Assembly: GCF_023736115.1 (NCBI RefSeq)
Contig: NZ_JAKQZC010000005.1
Coordinates: 310,001 to 374,000 of the forward strand
DNA length: 64,000 nucleotides
Origin: Salinicola avicenniae
GTDB lineage: Bacteria > Pseudomonadota > Gammaproteobacteria > Pseudomonadales > Halomonadaceae
Direction of reading: 5' to 3'
Shown here: one piece after another, positions 7,214-36,745 of the stretch
Numbering within the stretch: position 1 is the first letter of the stretch
Layout of the letters: each line of letters starts with the position of its first letter
The notes under the pieces: model-generated
Told to the model about the DNA's origin: nothing
Databases searched by the model: none
What the model saw: the letters and a program-made list of their open reading frames with translations, nothing else
Program-made: the position numbers and the translations under genes

Positions 7214-7290
7214 TGGTAGGACCGAGCGGATTTGAACCGCTGACCTCCACGATGTCAACGTGGCGCTCTAACCAACTGAGCTACGGTCCT
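7214..7290 (-). tRNA. tRNA-Val (anticodon GAC), distal copy
   Basis: A 77-base tRNA with encoded CCA. Acceptor stem AGGACCG pairs with CGGTCCT; D-loop AGTTGGTTA; anticodon stem CCACG/CGTGG with loop TTGACAT, giving anticodon GAC; T-arm AGCGG TTCAAAT CCGCT. It is identical to the copy at 7334-7410 and separated from it by 43 bases, so the two are one transcript. Confidence 0.97.
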
Positions 7291-7333
7291 GAAACAGTGC
7301 GTCATCGGCGTCCAACCCAGTACTGCGAACGAT

Positions 7334-7410
7334 TGGTAGGACCGAGCGGATTTGAACCGCTGACCTCCACGATGTCAACGTGGCGCTCTAACCAACTGAG
7401 CTACGGTCCT
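7334..7410 (-). tRNA. tRNA-Val (anticodon GAC), promoter-proximal copy
   Basis: Identical over all 77 bases to the copy at 7214-7290, with encoded CCA and anticodon GAC. A good promoter lies 37 bases upstream (7447-7474). Confidence 0.97.
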
Positions 7411-28694: not shown

Positions 28695-29387
28695 TCACCC
28701 ATGAACGCCAGACCCGCGGGCCCGATACAGGCCATGGCTGGCAATGTAGTCTTCCACGCTGGGCGGCAGCAGGTAGCGCACACTCTGACCGGCTTGCAGC
28801 CGACGACGCACCTCCGTGGCGGCAATCGCCATGCGGCTCGGCAGCCGCAGACGCAAAAGACCACCGTAGGGTGCCTGCATCAGCTCATCGACGCTGGCCG
28901 CCTCCCGCCCCGAGATCAGCGCTGCCAAGGCCGGCTCCAGCGGCGACTCATGGTCAGGCCGATCAAGCACCACGATATGCGCCAGCGAGAAAAGCCGCTC
29001 GTGCTGGTGCCAGTTCGGCAGCCCGAGAAAAGCGTCGTGACCGACCGCCATGACCAGCCTCGCGGTATCGCCGAGCTCGTCGCGCAGCGAGGCCAGTGTG
29101 TCTACCGAATAAGAGTGACCGGTGCGCCGAATCTCGCGATCGTCCGCCACCAGGCCCGGCGTATCGCCAATGCCGGCGGCGAGCATCGCCAGACGATGCT
29201 CGGCGGAGATACCCGGCGCCTCTCGATGCGGCGGCACGTGTACGGGAATCATGTGCACGACATCTAACGCCAGCACTTCGCGAAGCTCGATGGCGCTACG
29301 CAGATGCCCGAGATGCACCGGATCGAAGGTACCCCCGAGCATCGCAACTCTGGCCGGCACGCCCGCTGTTGAGCTACTGACGGACAT
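28695..29387 (-). CDS. nadD: Nicotinate-nucleotide adenylyltransferase
   Basis: Cytoplasmic enzyme of about 230 residues forming deamido-NAD from NaMN and ATP. The nucleotidyltransferase motif [12 protein letters not shown] is near the start. I take the ATG at 29387 (MSVSSSTAG), 14 bases inside the proA end; two further in-frame Met codons lie within 21 bases upstream, so the exact start is uncertain. Further blocks are SYSVDTL and the C-terminal ATEVRRRL. Confidence 0.92.
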
Positions 29388-30657
29388 GGCCATCGCCGAA
29401 AACCACATACTTGCGCGTGGTCAGCCCTTCGAGGCCAACCGGACCGCGCGCATGCAGTTTGTTGGTGGAGATGCCGATTTCCGCGCCCAGCCCGTACTCG
29501 AAACCGTCGGCGAACCGCGTCGAAGCGTTGACCATGACCGAACTCGAATCCACCTCGGCGAGAAACCGCCGCGCCAGCGTGAAGTTTTCGGTGACGATGG
29601 CGTCGGTGTGCTGAGAACCGTGGCGATTGATATGCGCGACCGCCTGATCGAAATCATCGACTACACGGATCGCCACGATCGGCGCCAGATACTCCTCGTC
29701 CCAATCCGATGCCTGCGCGGCCAGCGCGTCCGGCAGCAACGCGCACGTCTGCGGACAGCCACGCATCTCCACGCCCTTGTCCCGATAGATGGCGGCGATT
29801 CGCGGCAGCGCCTCGCCGGCCACCGCGCCATGCACCAGCAGTGTCTCCATGGTATTGCACGGCGAGTAGCGCTGCGTCTTGGCGTTGTCGGCAATCGCGA
29901 CGGCCTTATCGAGATCCGCATGGGCATCGATATAGACATGGCAAACGCCATCGAGATGCTTGATGACTGGTACCGTGGCTTCCTTGGCGATCCGCGCGAT
30001 CAATGACTTGCCACCGCGCGGCACGATAACGTCGACAAAGGTTGGCATGGTGATCAGCTCGCCGACAGCGGCGCGATCGGTCGTCGCCACGACCTGCACG
30101 GCCGTCGGCGGTAGCCCCGCATCTTCAAGACCGGCGCGAATGCAGGCGGCAATCGCCGCGTTGCTCGAAGAGGCTTCGGAGCCCCCGCGCAGAATGCAGG
30201 CGTTACCTGACTTGAGGCAGAGGGTGGCGGCTTCGACCGTCACGTTGGGCCGCGACTCGTAGATGATGCCGACGACGCCCAGCGGCACCCGCATCTGACC
30301 GACCTGGATGCCGCTGGGGCGATAGCTCAGCCCATCGATCTGTCCCACCGGGTCCGCTAGTGCCGCGACCTGGCGAACGCCGGCGATCATCGCTTCGATA
30401 CGGGCAGGCGTCAGCGCCAGGCGATCGAGCAGCGCGTCACTCAGCCCCGCGTCGCGCCCGCGCGCCAGATCCTGCTGGTTAGCCGACTCGAGACTCTCTC
30501 TCGCGGCATCCAGACGCGCGACAATCGCCGCCAGCGCGGCATTCTTGCGGCCGCTATCGATCCCTCGCAGCGTGGCGCTCGCCTGACGCGCCTGTTCTCC
30601 CAGTCGCTGCATATAGCCGGGAATATCGTCGACCTTCTCGGTCGCTTTGTCCTGCAT
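29374..30657 (-). CDS. proA: Gamma-glutamyl phosphate reductase
   Basis: NADPH-dependent enzyme of about 427 residues making glutamate-5-semialdehyde for proline synthesis. I use the Met at 30657 (MQDKATEK), with GGGA upstream; an ATG 14 codons earlier is possible. The glutamyl-phosphate reductase blocks [30 protein letters not shown] and HLDGVCHVY (catalytic Cys) are present. It heads the twelve-gene run towards lipA. Proline is also a compatible solute. Confidence 0.93.
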
Positions 30658-31075
30658 GGCGTACTGTCCCGTGTCGGTCTTCAAACCCGGCATTGCCACC
30701 CGTCGGCAGCATTGCCACTATTATGAGTCACTTCGATCACTATGAGTCACTTCAATCGCTATGCGTGCTTCGATCGTGAGCGTCACCGGTGTCCAGAGGT
30801 CGCCCCGATCGCGATGGTCAACTGTCAAAGGCCTTTTCACCTACCGTTAGGCCCACCGGCTCACTCTCACTGAAGAGACTGGCCGATGTGCCCTGGCGAG
30901 CCCCTTGACCCGTGCCATCGGCCGCGATGCTTTCTACCTCATCGCCAAGCGGACCAAAATGCGCTTAACACATTGTCTTCGATCGTAATTCGCGCTATGC
31001 GCCCGGTAACACGGCATGCGATAGTGAACGCCAATCGACGTGCGCAGAATCGTAATCGGCCCAATATAAGACACC
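30658..31075. other. Non-coding divergent region upstream of proA
   Basis: About 420 bp between the proA start and the first pseudo-GGDEF gene. It must hold the promoters of both. It contains a three-copy degenerate repeat (30722-30777). A sequence CAATATAAGACACC just before the start at 31076 could be a -10 region but lies very close to the ATG. A reading frame beginning at 30886 shows no protein character. Confidence 0.45.
30722..30777. repeat. Three-copy degenerate 19-bp tandem repeat
   Basis: TATGAGTCACTTCGATCAC (30722-30740), TATGAGTCACTTCAATCGC (30741-30759) and a diverged third copy TATGCGTGCTTCGATCGT (30760-30777) follow head to tail. They lie 65 bp upstream of the proA start. Confidence 0.8.
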
Positions 31076-31900
31076 ATGCAAAGCAAGTACAAAAGCCTCG
31101 GCACACGGATGCTGCTGATTCCGGCCGCGTTACTGGCATTCGCCACCGGCTGGTTCGGCGGAGACGTCCTGCGGATCGTCGCCTGGATGGCGGGAGCGCT
31201 TCTGCTGGTTCTCGCCGTGCGCCCCGCCTACCTCCGCCGCTACCTGCCGCTGATCGCGCTGGCGGTCGCTATCGCCATGCTCGCGAGCGGGCGAGGTTCT
31301 GCGCTGCCCTGGCTCTGGATTATCCCGCTCTGCCTTCAGAGCATCCCGGGGCGCTGTGGCACGATCGTCAATATCATGGTCTACGTGGGTACGCTCGGCT
31401 ATGCCGCGATCACACTATCGCCACCTTCAGCCCTGGTCGCCGGCATCTCGCTATCCGTGATCTGGCTGCTATGCTTGGAGTATCGCCGATCTGCCTCACC
31501 GATTTCGGCACCGGAAACCCACTGGCTCATGCCGGCTAGCCGTCTCGACGCCGACGTGCAGGATGAATTGCGTCGCAGCGAGCGCGAAGCCCTCCACGGC
31601 GAGGTCACCATATTCGGCTGCGCCCACCCCACCACAGGACAGATGAACGAGTTCTGCCAGGTGCTGCACGACAATCTGGCGCTCTATGAGCGCGCCTATC
31701 ATCTTGACGGCCAGGACATTGCCGTATTGCTCGTGGCGACAAACGCCGAGGCCGCGTATGAGCGCCGCCAACAGCTTGAACACGCCATCTCGCCGCACCG
31801 TGTGATCTCGTCGACCCCGCTGCGCGACGTAGGCGGCCGATTCCGGAGTTATCGTTCGCGACCTCAGTCTCCCCAGCAGGAGGCCGCCACGTGGTCGTAA
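31076..31900 (+). CDS. Membrane protein with degenerate GGDEF-like domain (first of pair)
   Basis: A 274-residue protein not matching any named family I know. Five or so hydrophobic helices fill residues 10-140, and a cytoplasmic domain of about 110 residues follows. That domain keeps the outline of a GGDEF fold: a heptad-like helix with ELRRSEREA, strand EVTIFGCAH, helix, then YERAYHLDGQDIAVLLVATNAEAA. The last aligns with the canonical RYGGDEFAVLLP...A segment, with DGQDI (211-215) replacing GGDEF. Catalytic acids are not conserved and the RxxD inhibitory site is absent. No good ribosome site is visible. The next gene overlaps its end. Confidence 0.6.
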   Translation: MQSKYKSLGTRMLLIPAALLAFATGWFGGDVLRIVAWMAGALLLVLAVRPAYLRRYLPLIALAVAIAMLASGRGSALPWLWIIPLCLQSIPGRCGTIVNIMVYVGTLGYAAITLSPPSALVAGISLSVIWLLCLEYRRSASPISAPETHWLMPASRLDADVQDELRRSEREALHGEVTIFGCAHPTTGQMNEFCQVLHDNLALYERAYHLDGQDIAVLLVATNAEAAYERRQQLEHAISPHRVISSTPLRDVGGRFRSYRSRPQSPQQEAATWS

Positions 31901-32814
31901 GCCGCTATAAGCTCACCGCTCAGGTGCTGGGCCTGGCGCTGTTTTCGGCGCTCGCCCTGTGGCATTACCTGATGCGCCATTACGACCTGATCCTGCCGCC
32001 GGCCCTGCTTGCCTCCGCACTGCTGATCTCCATGCCCCTGCAATGGTTGGGGCGCCTGCGACCGGCACTGGCCGATTATTTTCTTCTGATCGGCGCGCTG
32101 GCATTGTTCGCGCTAGAGGCGCCAAGCACCGCCCAGGGCATGCTCTGGGCCGGACTCCCCGCCATCGTCAGTCTGCTGGTGCTTTCGCTACCTCTCGCCC
32201 TGCTCCTCAACCTGTGCCTGGTGCCTGCCTGGCTCGCGCTGCTGGGCGACATTCACGTGACCGCCCAGAATCTCGCGATGGGCTGGTGGCTGACCATCAT
32301 GGCCACGGCACTGGTTCAACTCTTCATCTCCGCCCCGCGCCCCGGACGATTCAGCCTGATGCCCTGGCTGCGTGAACGCCGCCTCTCCTCCACGTGCATC
32401 CGCGAACGCCTGCGCGTAGAGGTCGCGCGCGCCACGGCAATGGACCGGCCACTAAGCGTACTCGTGCTTTATATCCCGCAACTGGACCAGGCCGACGATC
32501 AATTCGGTACCCAGCTTCGCGAAACCCTATCGGAAACATTCAGCGAAGTCGTCACCCACAACAGTCGACACAATGACCTACTTGGCGAGTGTCGCGAGAA
32601 CGTTTTCTGGCTCGCGCTGCCAAACTCTCGCGAGGCCGGCGCTCTGGCCGCCGCCAAACGGCTTTCGAACGCGATCGTGGCCATCTCTCAACCCGAGATC
32701 GGCCCACTCGAAAGCTGCACCCGCGTCTGCACGCTGGTCGATGGCGAAGAGGCGGATCACTTTCTCGAACGCCTCGATCGGGCCGCCGACAAACTATTGG
32801 AACCGCAAGCTTGA
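31891..32814 (+). CDS. Membrane protein with degenerate GGDEF-like domain, RxxD retained
   Basis: A 307-residue protein starting with GTG, with an ideal AGGAGG 6 bases upstream inside the end of the previous gene. Residues 10-150 hold about five membrane helices. The cytoplasmic domain begins CIRERLRVEVARATAMDRPLSVLVLYI, like the start of a GGDEF domain. The stretch RHNDLLGECRENVFWLALP aligns residue for residue, without gaps, with a canonical RESDLVARYGGDEFAVLLP. So RxxD (226-229) is kept in the inhibitory-site position, while GGDEF has become RENVF (235-239). It cannot be a cyclase but could bind c-di-GMP. Function inferred. Confidence 0.6.
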   Translation: MVVSRYKLTAQVLGLALFSALALWHYLMRHYDLILPPALLASALLISMPLQWLGRLRPALADYFLLIGALALFALEAPSTAQGMLWAGLPAIVSLLVLSLPLALLLNLCLVPAWLALLGDIHVTAQNLAMGWWLTIMATALVQLFISAPRPGRFSLMPWLRERRLSSTCIRERLRVEVARATAMDRPLSVLVLYIPQLDQADDQFGTQLRETLSETFSEVVTHNSRHNDLLGECRENVFWLALPNSREAGALAAAKRLSNAIVAISQPEIGPLESCTRVCTLVDGEEADHFLERLDRAADKLLEPQA

Positions 32815-34217
32815 ACGTCACGGACTGGCTCTATTCTCTTGGCGCGTCGCCCGGCTGGATGGCGCTAATCATTTTCGGCCTGGCACTGATCGAGTCGCTG
32901 GCCATCATCGGCATCGTGGTTCCCGGCGTCGCGATGCTGGGCGCCGCTGCCTCGGTCGCCGGCCACGCCAACCTGGCAATCTGGATCATGCTGCTGGCAG
33001 GCGCATCCGGCGCTTTCGTAGGCGACAACCTGAGCTTCTGGCTCGGGCGAACGCAGCGCACTCGCCTTCCCCGTTGCTGGCCACTCCGGCGTCATCCTGA
33101 ATGGCTGGAGCGAGGGACCGCCTTCTTCCAGCGCTACGGGCTCCTTTCCGTGGTGATCGGCCGATTCGTCGGCCCGGTCCGCCCTTTCGTGCCCATGGTG
33201 GCCGGCATGCTGTCCATGCCGACGCGCCGCTTCACGTTGATCAATGCTGTCTCGGCCCTCGCTTGGGCACCGGTCTACCTGCTCCCGGGGTATTGGCTCG
33301 GTCGCTCATGGACCGAGATCGCCCAGCTGCCAGCTGGCACCGAGCGCTGGCTGGTGGCGCTGTCATTGTCTCTTCTGCTACTGGGCGTAATCTTCTCCTG
33401 GTTCCGCTACCAACTGAGCGGTGACGGGCGGCTACACCGTTGGCTAGATAGTCGACTGGATGGCGGCGGCTGGCTGGCGGGTCTGTGGCGCGGCCTGAGT
33501 TCTCCCGCGCCGGACAGAGAGTTTCCCCTGGCTTCGCTGTCGCTGCTGTTCACCAGTCTGATCGCGCTGATTGCCTGGACTACCTGGGTGCTGCTGCATC
33601 ACGGGCCGCTGCCGATGGATCAACAGATCCACTCGCTAGCGGCCATGCTGCAACAGCGCTGGCTGGTCGGCACCAGCGAGACGCTGGCGGAGGTCGGTGA
33701 TGCCTTCGGCATCGGCGTGCTGATGGCACCCTGGCTACTATGGCTGCTATGGGCACGGCGCTTTGCGGCGCTCCTGCACATTGGCGGCGCCCTGGTCACA
33801 ATCGCGGTCGCGAACACCGTCTTCAAGGCACTGGCGGGGCGTACCAGGCCGGATACACCGGACTATTTGACCGGCTCGATGTCCTACCCCAGCGCGCACA
33901 CCTCGACCATCGTGGTGGTCGTGGGGCTGACCGCGGCGTTCGCCGCCCAGGCACTACCGCAGCGTTATCGTGCCTACGCCTACTGGAGCGGTATCCTCCT
34001 GTGCGCCCCCATGGCGCTGTCACGGCTGGTGATCGGCGTGCACTGGGCCAGCGACCTGATCGGCGGCGCCCTGCTGGGTCTGGTCGTCTGCGCCCTGGCC
34101 AGGATCAGTTACCAGCGCTTTCAGCGCCCGGATCGCGACATGCCACCCTGGCTCGCACTGGCGGCGACGTCACTGCTGCTGATCGTGGCACGCGTGATCT
34201 GGTTTGCGCCGGTCTAA
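32811..34217 (+). CDS. DedA-PAP2 fusion membrane protein
   Basis: The reading frame is longer, but homology starts at the TTG at 32811 (NVTDWLYSLGASPGW), which overlaps the previous stop as TTGA; GGAA lies upstream. It encodes 468 residues. The N-terminal half (1-200) is a DedA domain with the acidic motif LALIESLAIIGIVVPG, GAFVGDN and the Arg motif GRFVGPVRPFVPMVAGM. The C-terminal half (230-450) is a PAP2 phosphatase with KALAGRTRP, SYPSAHTS and SRLVIGVHWASD, all three catalytic motifs intact. Known DedA members translocate undecaprenyl phosphate, and PAP2 enzymes dephosphorylate lipid pyrophosphates. A joint lipid-carrier role is inferred. Confidence 0.85.
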   Translation: MNVTDWLYSLGASPGWMALIIFGLALIESLAIIGIVVPGVAMLGAAASVAGHANLAIWIMLLAGASGAFVGDNLSFWLGRTQRTRLPRCWPLRRHPEWLERGTAFFQRYGLLSVVIGRFVGPVRPFVPMVAGMLSMPTRRFTLINAVSALAWAPVYLLPGYWLGRSWTEIAQLPAGTERWLVALSLSLLLLGVIFSWFRYQLSGDGRLHRWLDSRLDGGGWLAGLWRGLSSPAPDREFPLASLSLLFTSLIALIAWTTWVLLHHGPLPMDQQIHSLAAMLQQRWLVGTSETLAEVGDAFGIGVLMAPWLLWLLWARRFAALLHIGGALVTIAVANTVFKALAGRTRPDTPDYLTGSMSYPSAHTSTIVVVVGLTAAFAAQALPQRYRAYAYWSGILLCAPMALSRLVIGVHWASDLIGGALLGLVVCALARISYQRFQRPDRDMPPWLALAATSLLLIVARVIWFAPV

Positions 34218-34295: not shown

Positions 34296-34979
34296 CTATT
34301 CGGCGCGCTCACCCCAGGCAGGCATCAACGACTGGTCGATTCCCAGCTGATTGAGCAGGCGTGCGACGATGAAGTCGATCATATCGTCGACGCTCTGCGG
34401 CCGATGGTAGAAGCCGGGCGCCGCGGGCAGCATGACCGCGCCCATGTTCGTCAGTTTGAGCATGTTGTCGAGGTGGACCGCCGATAGAGGCGTTTCCCGA
34501 GGCACCAGAATCAGCTGCCGGCGCTCCTTCAGCGCCACATCCGCGGCGCGCTCGATCAAGTTGTTGCTGGCCCCGGTCGCCACGGCGGAGAGCGTACCGG
34601 TCGAACACGGGCAGATGACCAGCGCTCGCCAGCGACCCGAACCCGATGCCACTGGCGCCATCCAGTCCTCTCTGCCGAAGCAACGAATCTGCGAGTCTCC
34701 GGCACCGGTACGCGCCGCCAGAACCGCCGCCAGTCGATCCGGCTGGGCAGGCAAGTCAATGTCGGTCTCGACGGCGATGACCCGATGCGCCGCCTTCGAC
34801 ACCATCACGTAGATTTCGTGACCGGCAGCGACCAGGCACTCGATCAAGCGCAGCCCGTACTGCACGCCGGAAGCACCGGTCAGCGCCACCGCGACCGGTG
34901 GCGCGTAATGCGTCGTGTCCGACGTTGCGGCGGGGGCCGAACGGTCGCGCTCAATCGCTACCTCAGGGCGTCGTGACAT
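34296..34979 (-). CDS. ubiX: UbiX-family flavin prenyltransferase
   Basis: A 227-residue cytoplasmic enzyme that prenylates FMN to make the cofactor of UbiD-type decarboxylases in ubiquinone synthesis. I use the ATG at 34979 (MSRRPEV), which overlaps the mpl end by 17 bases. Conserved blocks are ALTGASGVQYGLRLIE, ICPCSTGTLSAVATGASNNL, and VPRETPLSAVHLDNML. The family length is nearer 190-210; the extra N-terminal 25 residues are low-complexity. The pairing with mpl is also known in Pseudomonas. Confidence 0.93.
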   Translation of the reverse strand: MSRRPEVAIERDRSAPAATSDTTHYAPPVAVALTGASGVQYGLRLIECLVAAGHEIYVMVSKAAHRVIAVETDIDLPAQPDRLAAVLAARTGAGDSQIRCFGREDWMAPVASGSGRWRALVICPCSTGTLSAVATGASNNLIERAADVALKERRQLILVPRETPLSAVHLDNMLKLTNMGAVMLPAAPGFYHRPQSVDDMIDFIVARLLNQLGIDQSLMPAWGERAE

Positions 34980-36330
34980 GTCGTGCCTCCAGTGCCGCGA
35001 GAAGCTTGGCATGAATGCCGCCGAAGCCGCCGTTGGACATCACCACGATTCGGTCTCCAGGTCTCGCCGCCGCGACGACGTCGCTGACCAGCGCGTCCAG
35101 ATCAGTCTCGACCTGACTGGTCGCGTGGGCGGCGACCACGCTCGCCAATGACCAGTCCAAGCCGGGCGGCTGGTACCACCAGACGCGGTCGGCGGACTGA
35201 ACGCAATCGGCCAGCCGCGCCTTCATCTTACCTTGGCGCATGGTATTGGAACGCGGCTCGATCACCGCAAGCAGCCGCCCGGGAGCCGCGTCGCCCAGGC
35301 CCTCCAGCGTCAGGGCAATAGCCGTCGGATGATGGGCAAAGTCGTCGATGACCTGAATACCCTCGACTTCACCGCGAACCTCCTGACGCCGTCGCGGCGC
35401 CACGAAATCACCCAGCGCACGACAACCCGCCGCCGGATCGATGCCCAACTGGCTTGCCGCTGCCAAGGCCGCGACCGCGTTGGCGGCGTTGTGACGGCCG
35501 CTCATCGTCCATTCGACACGCTGCTCGGTCAGCCCGCGGCGCACGCCAAAGCCACCGCGGCCCGGCTGCCAGTCGATCTGCCAGTCATTGCCGTCCCCTT
35601 CGCCGAAGCGTTCGATCGGCGTCCAGCAGCCTTGGGCTAGCACCCGCTCTAGCGCGGGTTCCCCGCCGGCCACCACAAGCGCCCCCTTGCCCGGCACCGT
35701 GCGCACCAGATGATGAAACTGACGCTCGATAGCCGCGAGATCCTCGAAGATATCCGCATGATCGAATTCCAAGTTATTGAGAATCGCCACGTCCGGACGG
35801 TAATGCACAAACTTGGAACGCTTGTCGAAGAAAGCGGTGTCGTACTCGTCCGCCTCGACGACAAAGGGCGCACCGGCCGCCCCAAGGCGCGAAGAGACGC
35901 CGAAGTTACCCAGTACGCCGCCGATCAGGAAGCCCGGCTCCTGGCCATTCGCCTCGAGCAGCCATGCCAGCATACTGGCAGTGGTGGTTTTACCGTGTGT
36001 ACCGGCGACCGCCAACACCGGCCGCCCCGGCAACACGTGCTCCGCAAGCCACTGGGGGCCGGACACGTAAGGCAGGCGCGCATTCAACAGCGCCTCGATC
36101 TCAGGGTTGCCACGTGACAGCGCGTTGCCAACAACGACCAGGTCGGGATGCGGCTCGAGGTTGGCCGCGCGATACCCCTCCATAAGAGTGATGCCCATCT
36201 CCTCGAGCTGGGTACTCATCGGGGGGTAGACGTTGGCGTCGGAGCCGGTCACGTGATGCCCGAGCAGCTTGGCCAGTCGCGCCAGACTGCCCATGAAAGT
36301 CCCACAGATACCTACGACGTGAACGTGCAT
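34963..36330 (-). CDS. mpl: Murein peptide ligase Mpl
   Basis: Mur-ligase family enzyme of 455 residues that joins recycled L-Ala-gamma-D-Glu-meso-Dap to UDP-MurNAc. Start at 36330 (MHVHVVGICGTFMGSLARL), with GGGAGAG 5 bases before; the frame is open further upstream without homology. The ATP loop is AGTHGKTTTASML, with the central-domain EADEYDTAFFDKRSKF and later DDFAHHPTAI. It works in peptidoglycan recycling. Confidence 0.95.
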   Translation of the reverse strand: MHVHVVGICGTFMGSLARLAKLLGHHVTGSDANVYPPMSTQLEEMGITLMEGYRAANLEPHPDLVVVGNALSRGNPEIEALLNARLPYVSGPQWLAEHVLPGRPVLAVAGTHGKTTTASMLAWLLEANGQEPGFLIGGVLGNFGVSSRLGAAGAPFVVEADEYDTAFFDKRSKFVHYRPDVAILNNLEFDHADIFEDLAAIERQFHHLVRTVPGKGALVVAGGEPALERVLAQGCWTPIERFGEGDGNDWQIDWQPGRGGFGVRRGLTEQRVEWTMSGRHNAANAVAALAAASQLGIDPAAGCRALGDFVAPRRRQEVRGEVEGIQVIDDFAHHPTAIALTLEGLGDAAPGRLLAVIEPRSNTMRQGKMKARLADCVQSADRVWWYQPPGLDWSLASVVAAHATSQVETDLDALVSDVVAAARPGDRIVVMSNGGFGGIHAKLLAALEARHVTTP

Positions 36331-36745
36331 GCCACTCTCCCTACGCTGAACCGGCGAGACTAGCATGGCGCCGAAAACCGGACCACCGCAGGCCCCTTCC
36401 ACGCCTGCCACAAGCGGCGCGCGCGATGTCCTTGCCACCACGACCATCGACGCTCGCCGCCTTATCTCAACGCTTTGTCGCAGAAAAATGACCGGTATCC
36501 GCACCGGCGTCTCGTATTAACAGCCATCAGCCTTTCGGCTATGCTGGCCCCGCACCCGTGACTTGCACCACTTTCGAACACCGGGATCGGGCCATCGACC
36601 CCTGGCAGCGCTCTCGCAGGCCCTGCCGGGCAGGTCGCCTCGAGTCTGCGGCCCAGGGAAGCGGCCTGGCGGACTCGGTCCGGCACGACGGCGGATCCAG
36701 GCACCGATACCGGCGACTACTGCCCCTCAGGAGATCAGAGCCGAC
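36331..36745. other. Non-coding divergent region between mpl and pfp
   Basis: About 415 bp with no convincing gene. A plausible promoter for the downstream phosphofructokinase is at 36517-36545, leaving a 5' leader of roughly 190 bases. I see no recognised riboswitch in it. Confidence 0.5.
36517..36545 (+). promoter_or_regulatory. Putative sigma-70 promoter of pfp
   Basis: TTAACA (36517-36522), a 17-base spacer and TATGCT (36540-36545). Two mismatches in each half from consensus is acceptable, and the position is upstream of the only plus-strand gene here. Confidence 0.5.

Follow-up and report, generated by a model that had tools for sequence, protein, structure and literature searches.

Two degenerate membrane GGDEF proteins encoded beside a DedA-PAP2 fusion in Salinicola: a candidate cyclic di-GMP receptor with a possible lipid phosphatase target

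What might two membrane proteins that resemble dead diguanylate cyclases do in front of a lipid phosphatase? The question is raised by three plus-strand genes in a 64,000-nucleotide stretch of the Salinicola avicenniae genome (contig NZ_JAKQZC010000005.1, positions 310,001 to 374,000), here called the window, whose numbering is used throughout. The genes are g1 (31076-31900, 274 amino acids), g2 (31891-32814, 307 amino acids, GTG start) and g3 (32811-34217, 468 amino acids, TTG start). As a preliminary description of this DNA had pointed out, their frames overlap, g1 and g2 by 10 nucleotides (nt; 31891-31900) and the g2 stop and g3 start by the 4 nt TTGA (32811-32814). The same description read g1 and g2 as membrane pseudo-GGDEF proteins and g3 as a DedA domain joined to a complete PAP2 phosphatase, and suggested that they couple cyclic diguanylate (c-di-GMP) or another nucleotide to recycling of the undecaprenyl carrier. 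Our analysis indicates that g2 is, with high probability, a c-di-GMP receptor, that g1 is its more eroded, paralogous relative, and that g3 is a possible target of the two.

The presence of a GGDEF domain in g2 (32383-32805, about residues 165-305) was supported by both profile and structure, and in the structure model about 20 residues separate it from the membrane part. To follow this domain we used 50 g2 orthologues from four families, that is 51 loci less one with a broken g2 (L045). The GG(D/E)EF signature was found in none of the 50, and in the window the former active-site motif reads RENVF (residues 235-239, 32593-32607). An equivalent of the metal-binding aspartate D327 of PleD (numbering taken from the papers cited) is likewise missing from all 50, and equivalents of K332, N335 and D344 are kept in 2, 3 and 1 of them. 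Since the catalytic and metal residues are gone g2 is likely inactive, and no diguanylate cyclase activity would be expected of it.

The picture is reversed at the inhibitory site (I-site). In PleD this site binds c-di-GMP through R313, R359, D362 and R390 (excerpts of PMC7288161, PMC8041772 and PMC12943098), R313 being contributed by the neighbouring molecule (the same parts of PMC7288161 and PMC8041772). All four residues have equivalents in window g2: R180 for R313 in the secondary site (32428-32430), R226 and D229 for R359 and D362 in the RxxD of the primary site (32566-32577, at -9/-6 relative to the former motif), and R257 for R390 (32659-32661). The first three are present in 50/50 orthologues each and the last is arginine in 48 and lysine in two, so that the complete quartet stands in 48 of the 50, and in every one the R313 and R390 equivalents stand, without gaps, as far apart as they do in PleD. 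Only five columns are invariant over the 50 sequences (E177, R180, R226, D229 and R294), three of which belong to the I-site. The usual conservation is inverted in g2, with the inhibitory site frozen and the active site free to vary. As a control we used the GGDEF matches of the same genome, 20 with g2 included. Of 15 domains with an intact motif, 2 carry the full quartet (3 if lysine is allowed at the R390 position, L088) and 8 carry RxxD; none of the 4 other degenerate domains has the quartet. Because the quartet is rare in the other GGDEF domains of the genome, the fold does not require these I-site residues. The nucleotide link proposed earlier is strengthened as far as c-di-GMP is concerned, given a complete I-site beside a lost catalytic site, and the alternative of another nucleotide becomes unnecessary.

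Known targets of dead GGDEF domains that serve as c-di-GMP receptors include a polysaccharide system (PelD) and a histidine kinase (SgmT). The PelD domain is a degenerate GGDEF domain that is preceded by a GAF domain. Like PelD, g2 sits in the membrane, lacks the catalytic motif and carries RxxD and a third arginine, and to judge from these residues it probably works in the same manner, perhaps together with g1. In PelD the exchanges R367A, D370A and R402A abolish c-di-GMP binding and function (PMC2170427, in part). Unlike PelD, g2 lacks a GAF domain (no Pfam match to one among hits at E<=10) and has a paralogous partner and usually a DedA-PAP2 neighbour; the distance from the first arginine of RxxD to the third arginine is 31 residues in g2 and PleD, as compared to 35 in PelD. 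g2 agrees with PleD-type product-inhibited cyclases in the four I-site residues and in their exact spacing, but it has lost the catalytic and metal residues.

The partner protein g1 combines six longer predicted membrane helices with a strongly eroded GGDEF-like domain (31508-31846, residues 145-257, the range of the structural matches). Among 51 g1 sequences none has the GG(D/E)EF signature or the I-site quartet, and a metal-binding aspartate was found by column in two, window g1 not among them. The first description of both as pseudo-GGDEF proteins is supported (motif in 0/50 g2 and 0/51 g1), and the GGDEF fold, which a structure prediction could have contradicted, is clear for g2 and, on weaker evidence, tentative for g1. 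RxxD is present in the g1 of 19 loci from families f7, f20 and f38 and of locus L047; in the other 31, all from the Salinicola family, its D has become E and its R is gone except in L043. Window g1 has lost this site and kept R167, the equivalent of PleD R313 in the secondary site, which is retained in 50 of the 51. This pattern suggests that a c-di-GMP dimer sitting on g2 could receive its bridging arginine from g1. The sensor domain MASE6 (Pfam) has no match in window g1 or g2; two f38 g1 proteins reach its cut-off and a third stays below it, and weak matches were seen in 2 of 22 aligned g2. Many g1 of the family share a conserved start, M-x-S-K-Y-K (31076 onward), and a similar SRYK occurs close to the beginning of most Salinicola g2.

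How far do the three genes travel together? We sampled 58 genomes of relatives, S. avicenniae included, 37 of which (G000-G036) belong to its own family. The trio adjoins proA in 29 of these 37, namely in all 18 genomes of the genus Salinicola and in 11 further genera of the family (L035-L045; in L045, genome G024, the g2 frame is broken). In several genera g1 was identified by position and alignment and not by single-sequence search, which matched g1 at E<=0.001 in 23 of the 58 genomes. The g2/g3 overlap is exactly 4 nt in 26 of 28 own-family loci (L045 included). Between g1 and g2 the overlap is 10 nt in all 17 Salinicola loci and 0-26 nt in 10 of the remaining 11, the broken L045 having a 78-nt gap. 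The three proteins may thus be co-translated. We searched the order and a sample of the class, scoring at most 8 candidates per genome in both. For the order we used a g1 profile in which f7 and f20 were represented by a single member apiece. Over the order (293 genomes) this profile matched at E<=1e-20 in 32: 9 in the own family, 2 in f7, 12 in f20 and 9 in f38. Of the 23 matches outside the family 19 loci were read (f7 2/2, f20 10/12, f38 7/9; L067-L081, L083-L086), and in all 19 the g1-g2 pair is divergent from proA; a DedA-PAP2 gene follows it in 12/12 f7 and f20 loci. In the class sample (274 genomes) no pair was found outside the order, the sole match besides the own genome being an intact GGDEF protein. 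Three families (f1, f7 and f20) share the order pair-g3, with the pair between proA and g3 wherever a locus that was read contains both. Adjacency in this genome alone, which would have counted against the preliminary description, is evidently not the case: the trio extends to two further families, and the pair to a third. As a unit the pair is old and conserved; g3 accompanies it often but not obligatorily.

PAP2 lipid phosphatases are marked by the motifs KX6RP, PSxH and SRX5HX3D. In g3 both announced domains are clear, the DedA (VTT) domain at 32919-33293 and the PAP2 domain at 33771-34118, and all three PAP2 motifs are intact, as they are in 21 of 22 aligned homologues, the window included (L061 fails). 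The DedA part shares with UptA/YghB-type flippases the equivalents of YghB E39, R130 and R136, kept in 22/22 homologues (also in 14/14 sequences of an alignment); in window g3 these are E28, just upstream of the domain, R118 and R124. It differs from these flippases in its fused PAP2 and in lacking an equivalent of D51. One other VTT-domain protein is encoded in the genome, by reading of another DedA type. A PAP2 centre outside the cytoplasm is given as the general rule for such enzymes in an excerpt of PMC12826051. A second, longer DedA-PAP2 protein lies elsewhere in 6 of the 18 genus genomes (L062 in G004, L063 in G013, and G002, G007, G008 and G017), with open frames of 591-771 amino acids; the G017 match contains a TGA, and the L063 protein has a weak LssY_C match below the cut-off.

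The described counterpart of g3 appears to be PA4011 (PapP) of Pseudomonas aeruginosa, with the same domain order, a similar length (437 amino acids) and apparently the same chromosomal slot. In two loci of family f21 (L106, L107) the genes run mrdA-rlmH-rsfS-nadD-proA, followed by a methylpurine-DNA glycosylase gene and then by DedA-PAP2, and the row proA-glycosylase-DedA-PAP2 is seen in 3 of 4 f21 loci (L106, L107 and L109; L108 is without the glycosylase). Since this row matches the described operon of PA4010, a 3-methyladenine DNA glycosylase, and PA4011 (PMC7916210, in part), g3 is likely the syntenic counterpart of PA4011, and f21 would correspond to Pseudomonas. As a difference from the g3 locus, none of the four f21 loci read has a pseudo-GGDEF pair. 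Loss of PA4011 lowers the emergence of colistin resistance, and its function is called elusive (excerpt of PMC12893004); the gene is PhoP-regulated and its loss weakens outer-membrane integrity under polymyxin B (excerpt of PMC7916210). Overall, g3 is best described as a lipid phosphatase of the PapP type that carries a DedA-like part for lipid handling, and not as a housekeeping flippase.

Combining these elements, we put forward a scheme in which a diguanylate cyclase has become a membrane-bound c-di-GMP receptor, g2, by erasing its catalytic site and keeping its I-site. In this family its paralogous partner g1 would have given up its own RxxD while still offering the arginine of the secondary site. 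At high c-di-GMP, RxxD and R257 of g2 would hold a dimer of the nucleotide, which would reach across to the secondary arginine in a neighbouring domain, either R167 of g1 or R180 of a second g2. Such bridging would lock two cytoplasmic domains together, and the locked domains could, via the membrane helices, alter the activity of g3, whose PAP2 part would dephosphorylate a lipid, perhaps undecaprenyl pyrophosphate (C55-PP), presented or moved by the DedA part. A receptor pair often acting on a PapP-type lipid phosphatase is the reading that we favour; in just this form it is possible, and we offer it tentatively; once g2 is granted to be a c-di-GMP receptor, the chance that g3 is its target seems about even. 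The strictest version, an ancient heteromeric pair of dead membrane GGDEF proteins whose split I-site (primary site in g2, arginine from g1) directly gates a lipid phosphatase, is unlikely. If it were true, the biofilm messenger would determine how an envelope lipid is supplied or recycled. In more general terms, a biofilm signal may control the handling of envelope lipids by the cell.

A number of observations weigh against this scheme. The conserved I-site residues of g2 show a capacity and not binding as such, and in the g2 model both the RxxD loop and the membrane part were poorly predicted. For g1 the structure model was poor, Foldseek gave no match with it at 0.001, and a family-only g1 profile barely matched intact GGDEF domains (probability 5.3). 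One could suppose that g1 and g2 are what is left of diguanylate cyclases in decay, preserved by their operon or for membrane sensing that is free of nucleotide, as the loss of active-site motifs in all members examined and the strong divergence of g1 would allow. We regard this as improbable, and drift in particular as unlikely for g2, because drift is not expected to spare just the four I-site residues, at exact spacing and across four families. Moreover, broken frames were met in only two of the genomes read, G013 (g1 and g2) and G024 (g2), and in the first (Salinicola tamaricis, L034) they are likely an assembly or sequencing error, since mrdA, proA, mpl and pfk are in pieces there as well. 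Some degenerate GGDEF proteins are active, according to an excerpt of PMC3974145, and g2 or a g1-g2 heteromer might by analogy still use a changed active site to make a cyclic dinucleotide; but here the loss extends beyond the motif to the metal aspartate and the equivalents of K332, N335 and D344, which leaves this idea hardly credible.

The genomic record also weighs against the proposed action on g3. Two genomes of the family (G019, G020) have the g1-g2 pair and no g3 match genome-wide at E<=1e-10, and in six family genera (G023, G025, G031-G034) g3 occupies the slot alone, as it does beside proA in the four f21 loci and in G040. None of the seven f38 loci has a fused DedA-PAP2 after the pair; at most there is a DedA gene without PAP2, directly behind the pair in L077, about 1 kb away in L078, L080 and L081, and not found within the fetched stretch in L075, L076 and L079. 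With the pair lacking g3 in 2/37 and g3 lacking the pair in 6/37 family genomes, the trio is not an obligate unit. The RxxD is also retained in g2 of G019, G020 and f38, and since it is kept where g3 is absent its selection is independent of g3. It is thus quite possible, though short of probable, that the pair is a c-di-GMP receptor with another target, such as the neighbouring cell-elongation machinery, an exopolysaccharide or an adhesin system, and that g3 is no more than an old neighbour beside proA. The 4-nt g2/g3 overlap in nearly all family loci and the order held in three families, always with the pair between proA and g3, argue for a closer connection. A different objection concerns the role of g3 itself. 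The earlier suggestion of carrier recycling would make it a machine for undecaprenyl phosphate (C55-P) under c-di-GMP control, in which PAP2 dephosphorylates C55-PP and DedA flips C55-P. Both protein families are implicated in the C55 pathway, fusions of DedA with PAP2 are mentioned as a pointer to C55 recycling (parts of PMC9876793 and PMC10127716), and E28, R118 and R124 are kept. However, acidic and basic residues of this set, D51 among them, are essential in COG0586 proteins of E. coli and B. subtilis (PMC10127716, in excerpt), and the D51 position is V40 in window g3 and V in 17, A in 2, T in 2 and I in 1 of the 22 homologues, acidic in none. DedA-only proteins of two f21 genomes, which we take to be PA4029 relatives, keep the D51 equivalent. 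Because the acidic residue is missing, a lipid-moving role of g3 is uncertain. In addition, PA4011 did not rescue the loss of the flippase PA4029 and is likely not involved in flipping C55-P back (PMC12893004, in part), and the S. avicenniae genome already encodes DUF368 (PopT) and BacA homologues. Coupling to carrier recycling is accordingly doubtful, and we consider it quite improbable in that specific form.

Each component of the proposed receptor-phosphatase locus is of a known kind; what appears to be new is the combination, with an I-site receptor coupled to lipid-phosphatase machinery. A literature search of open-licence papers found no description of the g1-g2-g3 combination and none of a dead-GGDEF receptor acting on lipid-carrier or lipid-phosphatase machinery. 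A review of how the undecaprenyl phosphate pool is shared asks whether further controls exist (excerpt of PMC12826051), and the present locus is a concrete candidate with named residues for such control. It may also give PA4011/PapP a regulatory context in related bacteria.

The trio is flanked by proA (29374-30699, minus strand, divergent from g1) and by ubiX-mpl (34296-36504, minus strand). On the proA side nadD, rsfS, rlmH and mrdA lie upstream on the minus strand, and a phosphofructokinase-type gene follows downstream of ubiX-mpl on the plus strand; the names of neighbouring genes were assigned by reading translations. The proA-ubiX slot holds EamA-type transporter genes in two family genera (L037:3664-4542 and L047:5425-6285, the latter without g3). 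No ubiX was found in this slot in the six genera that have g3 but lack the pair (L052-L057), hinting at a shared rearrangement. An opposite-strand gene of about 280-330 amino acids, which reads like a class I methyltransferase, lies right after g2 in six out of seven f38 loci (L075, L076, L078-L081). Elsewhere in the window, two tandem tRNA-Val (gac) genes lie 43 nt apart on the minus strand (7214-7410), with equal Rfam scores.

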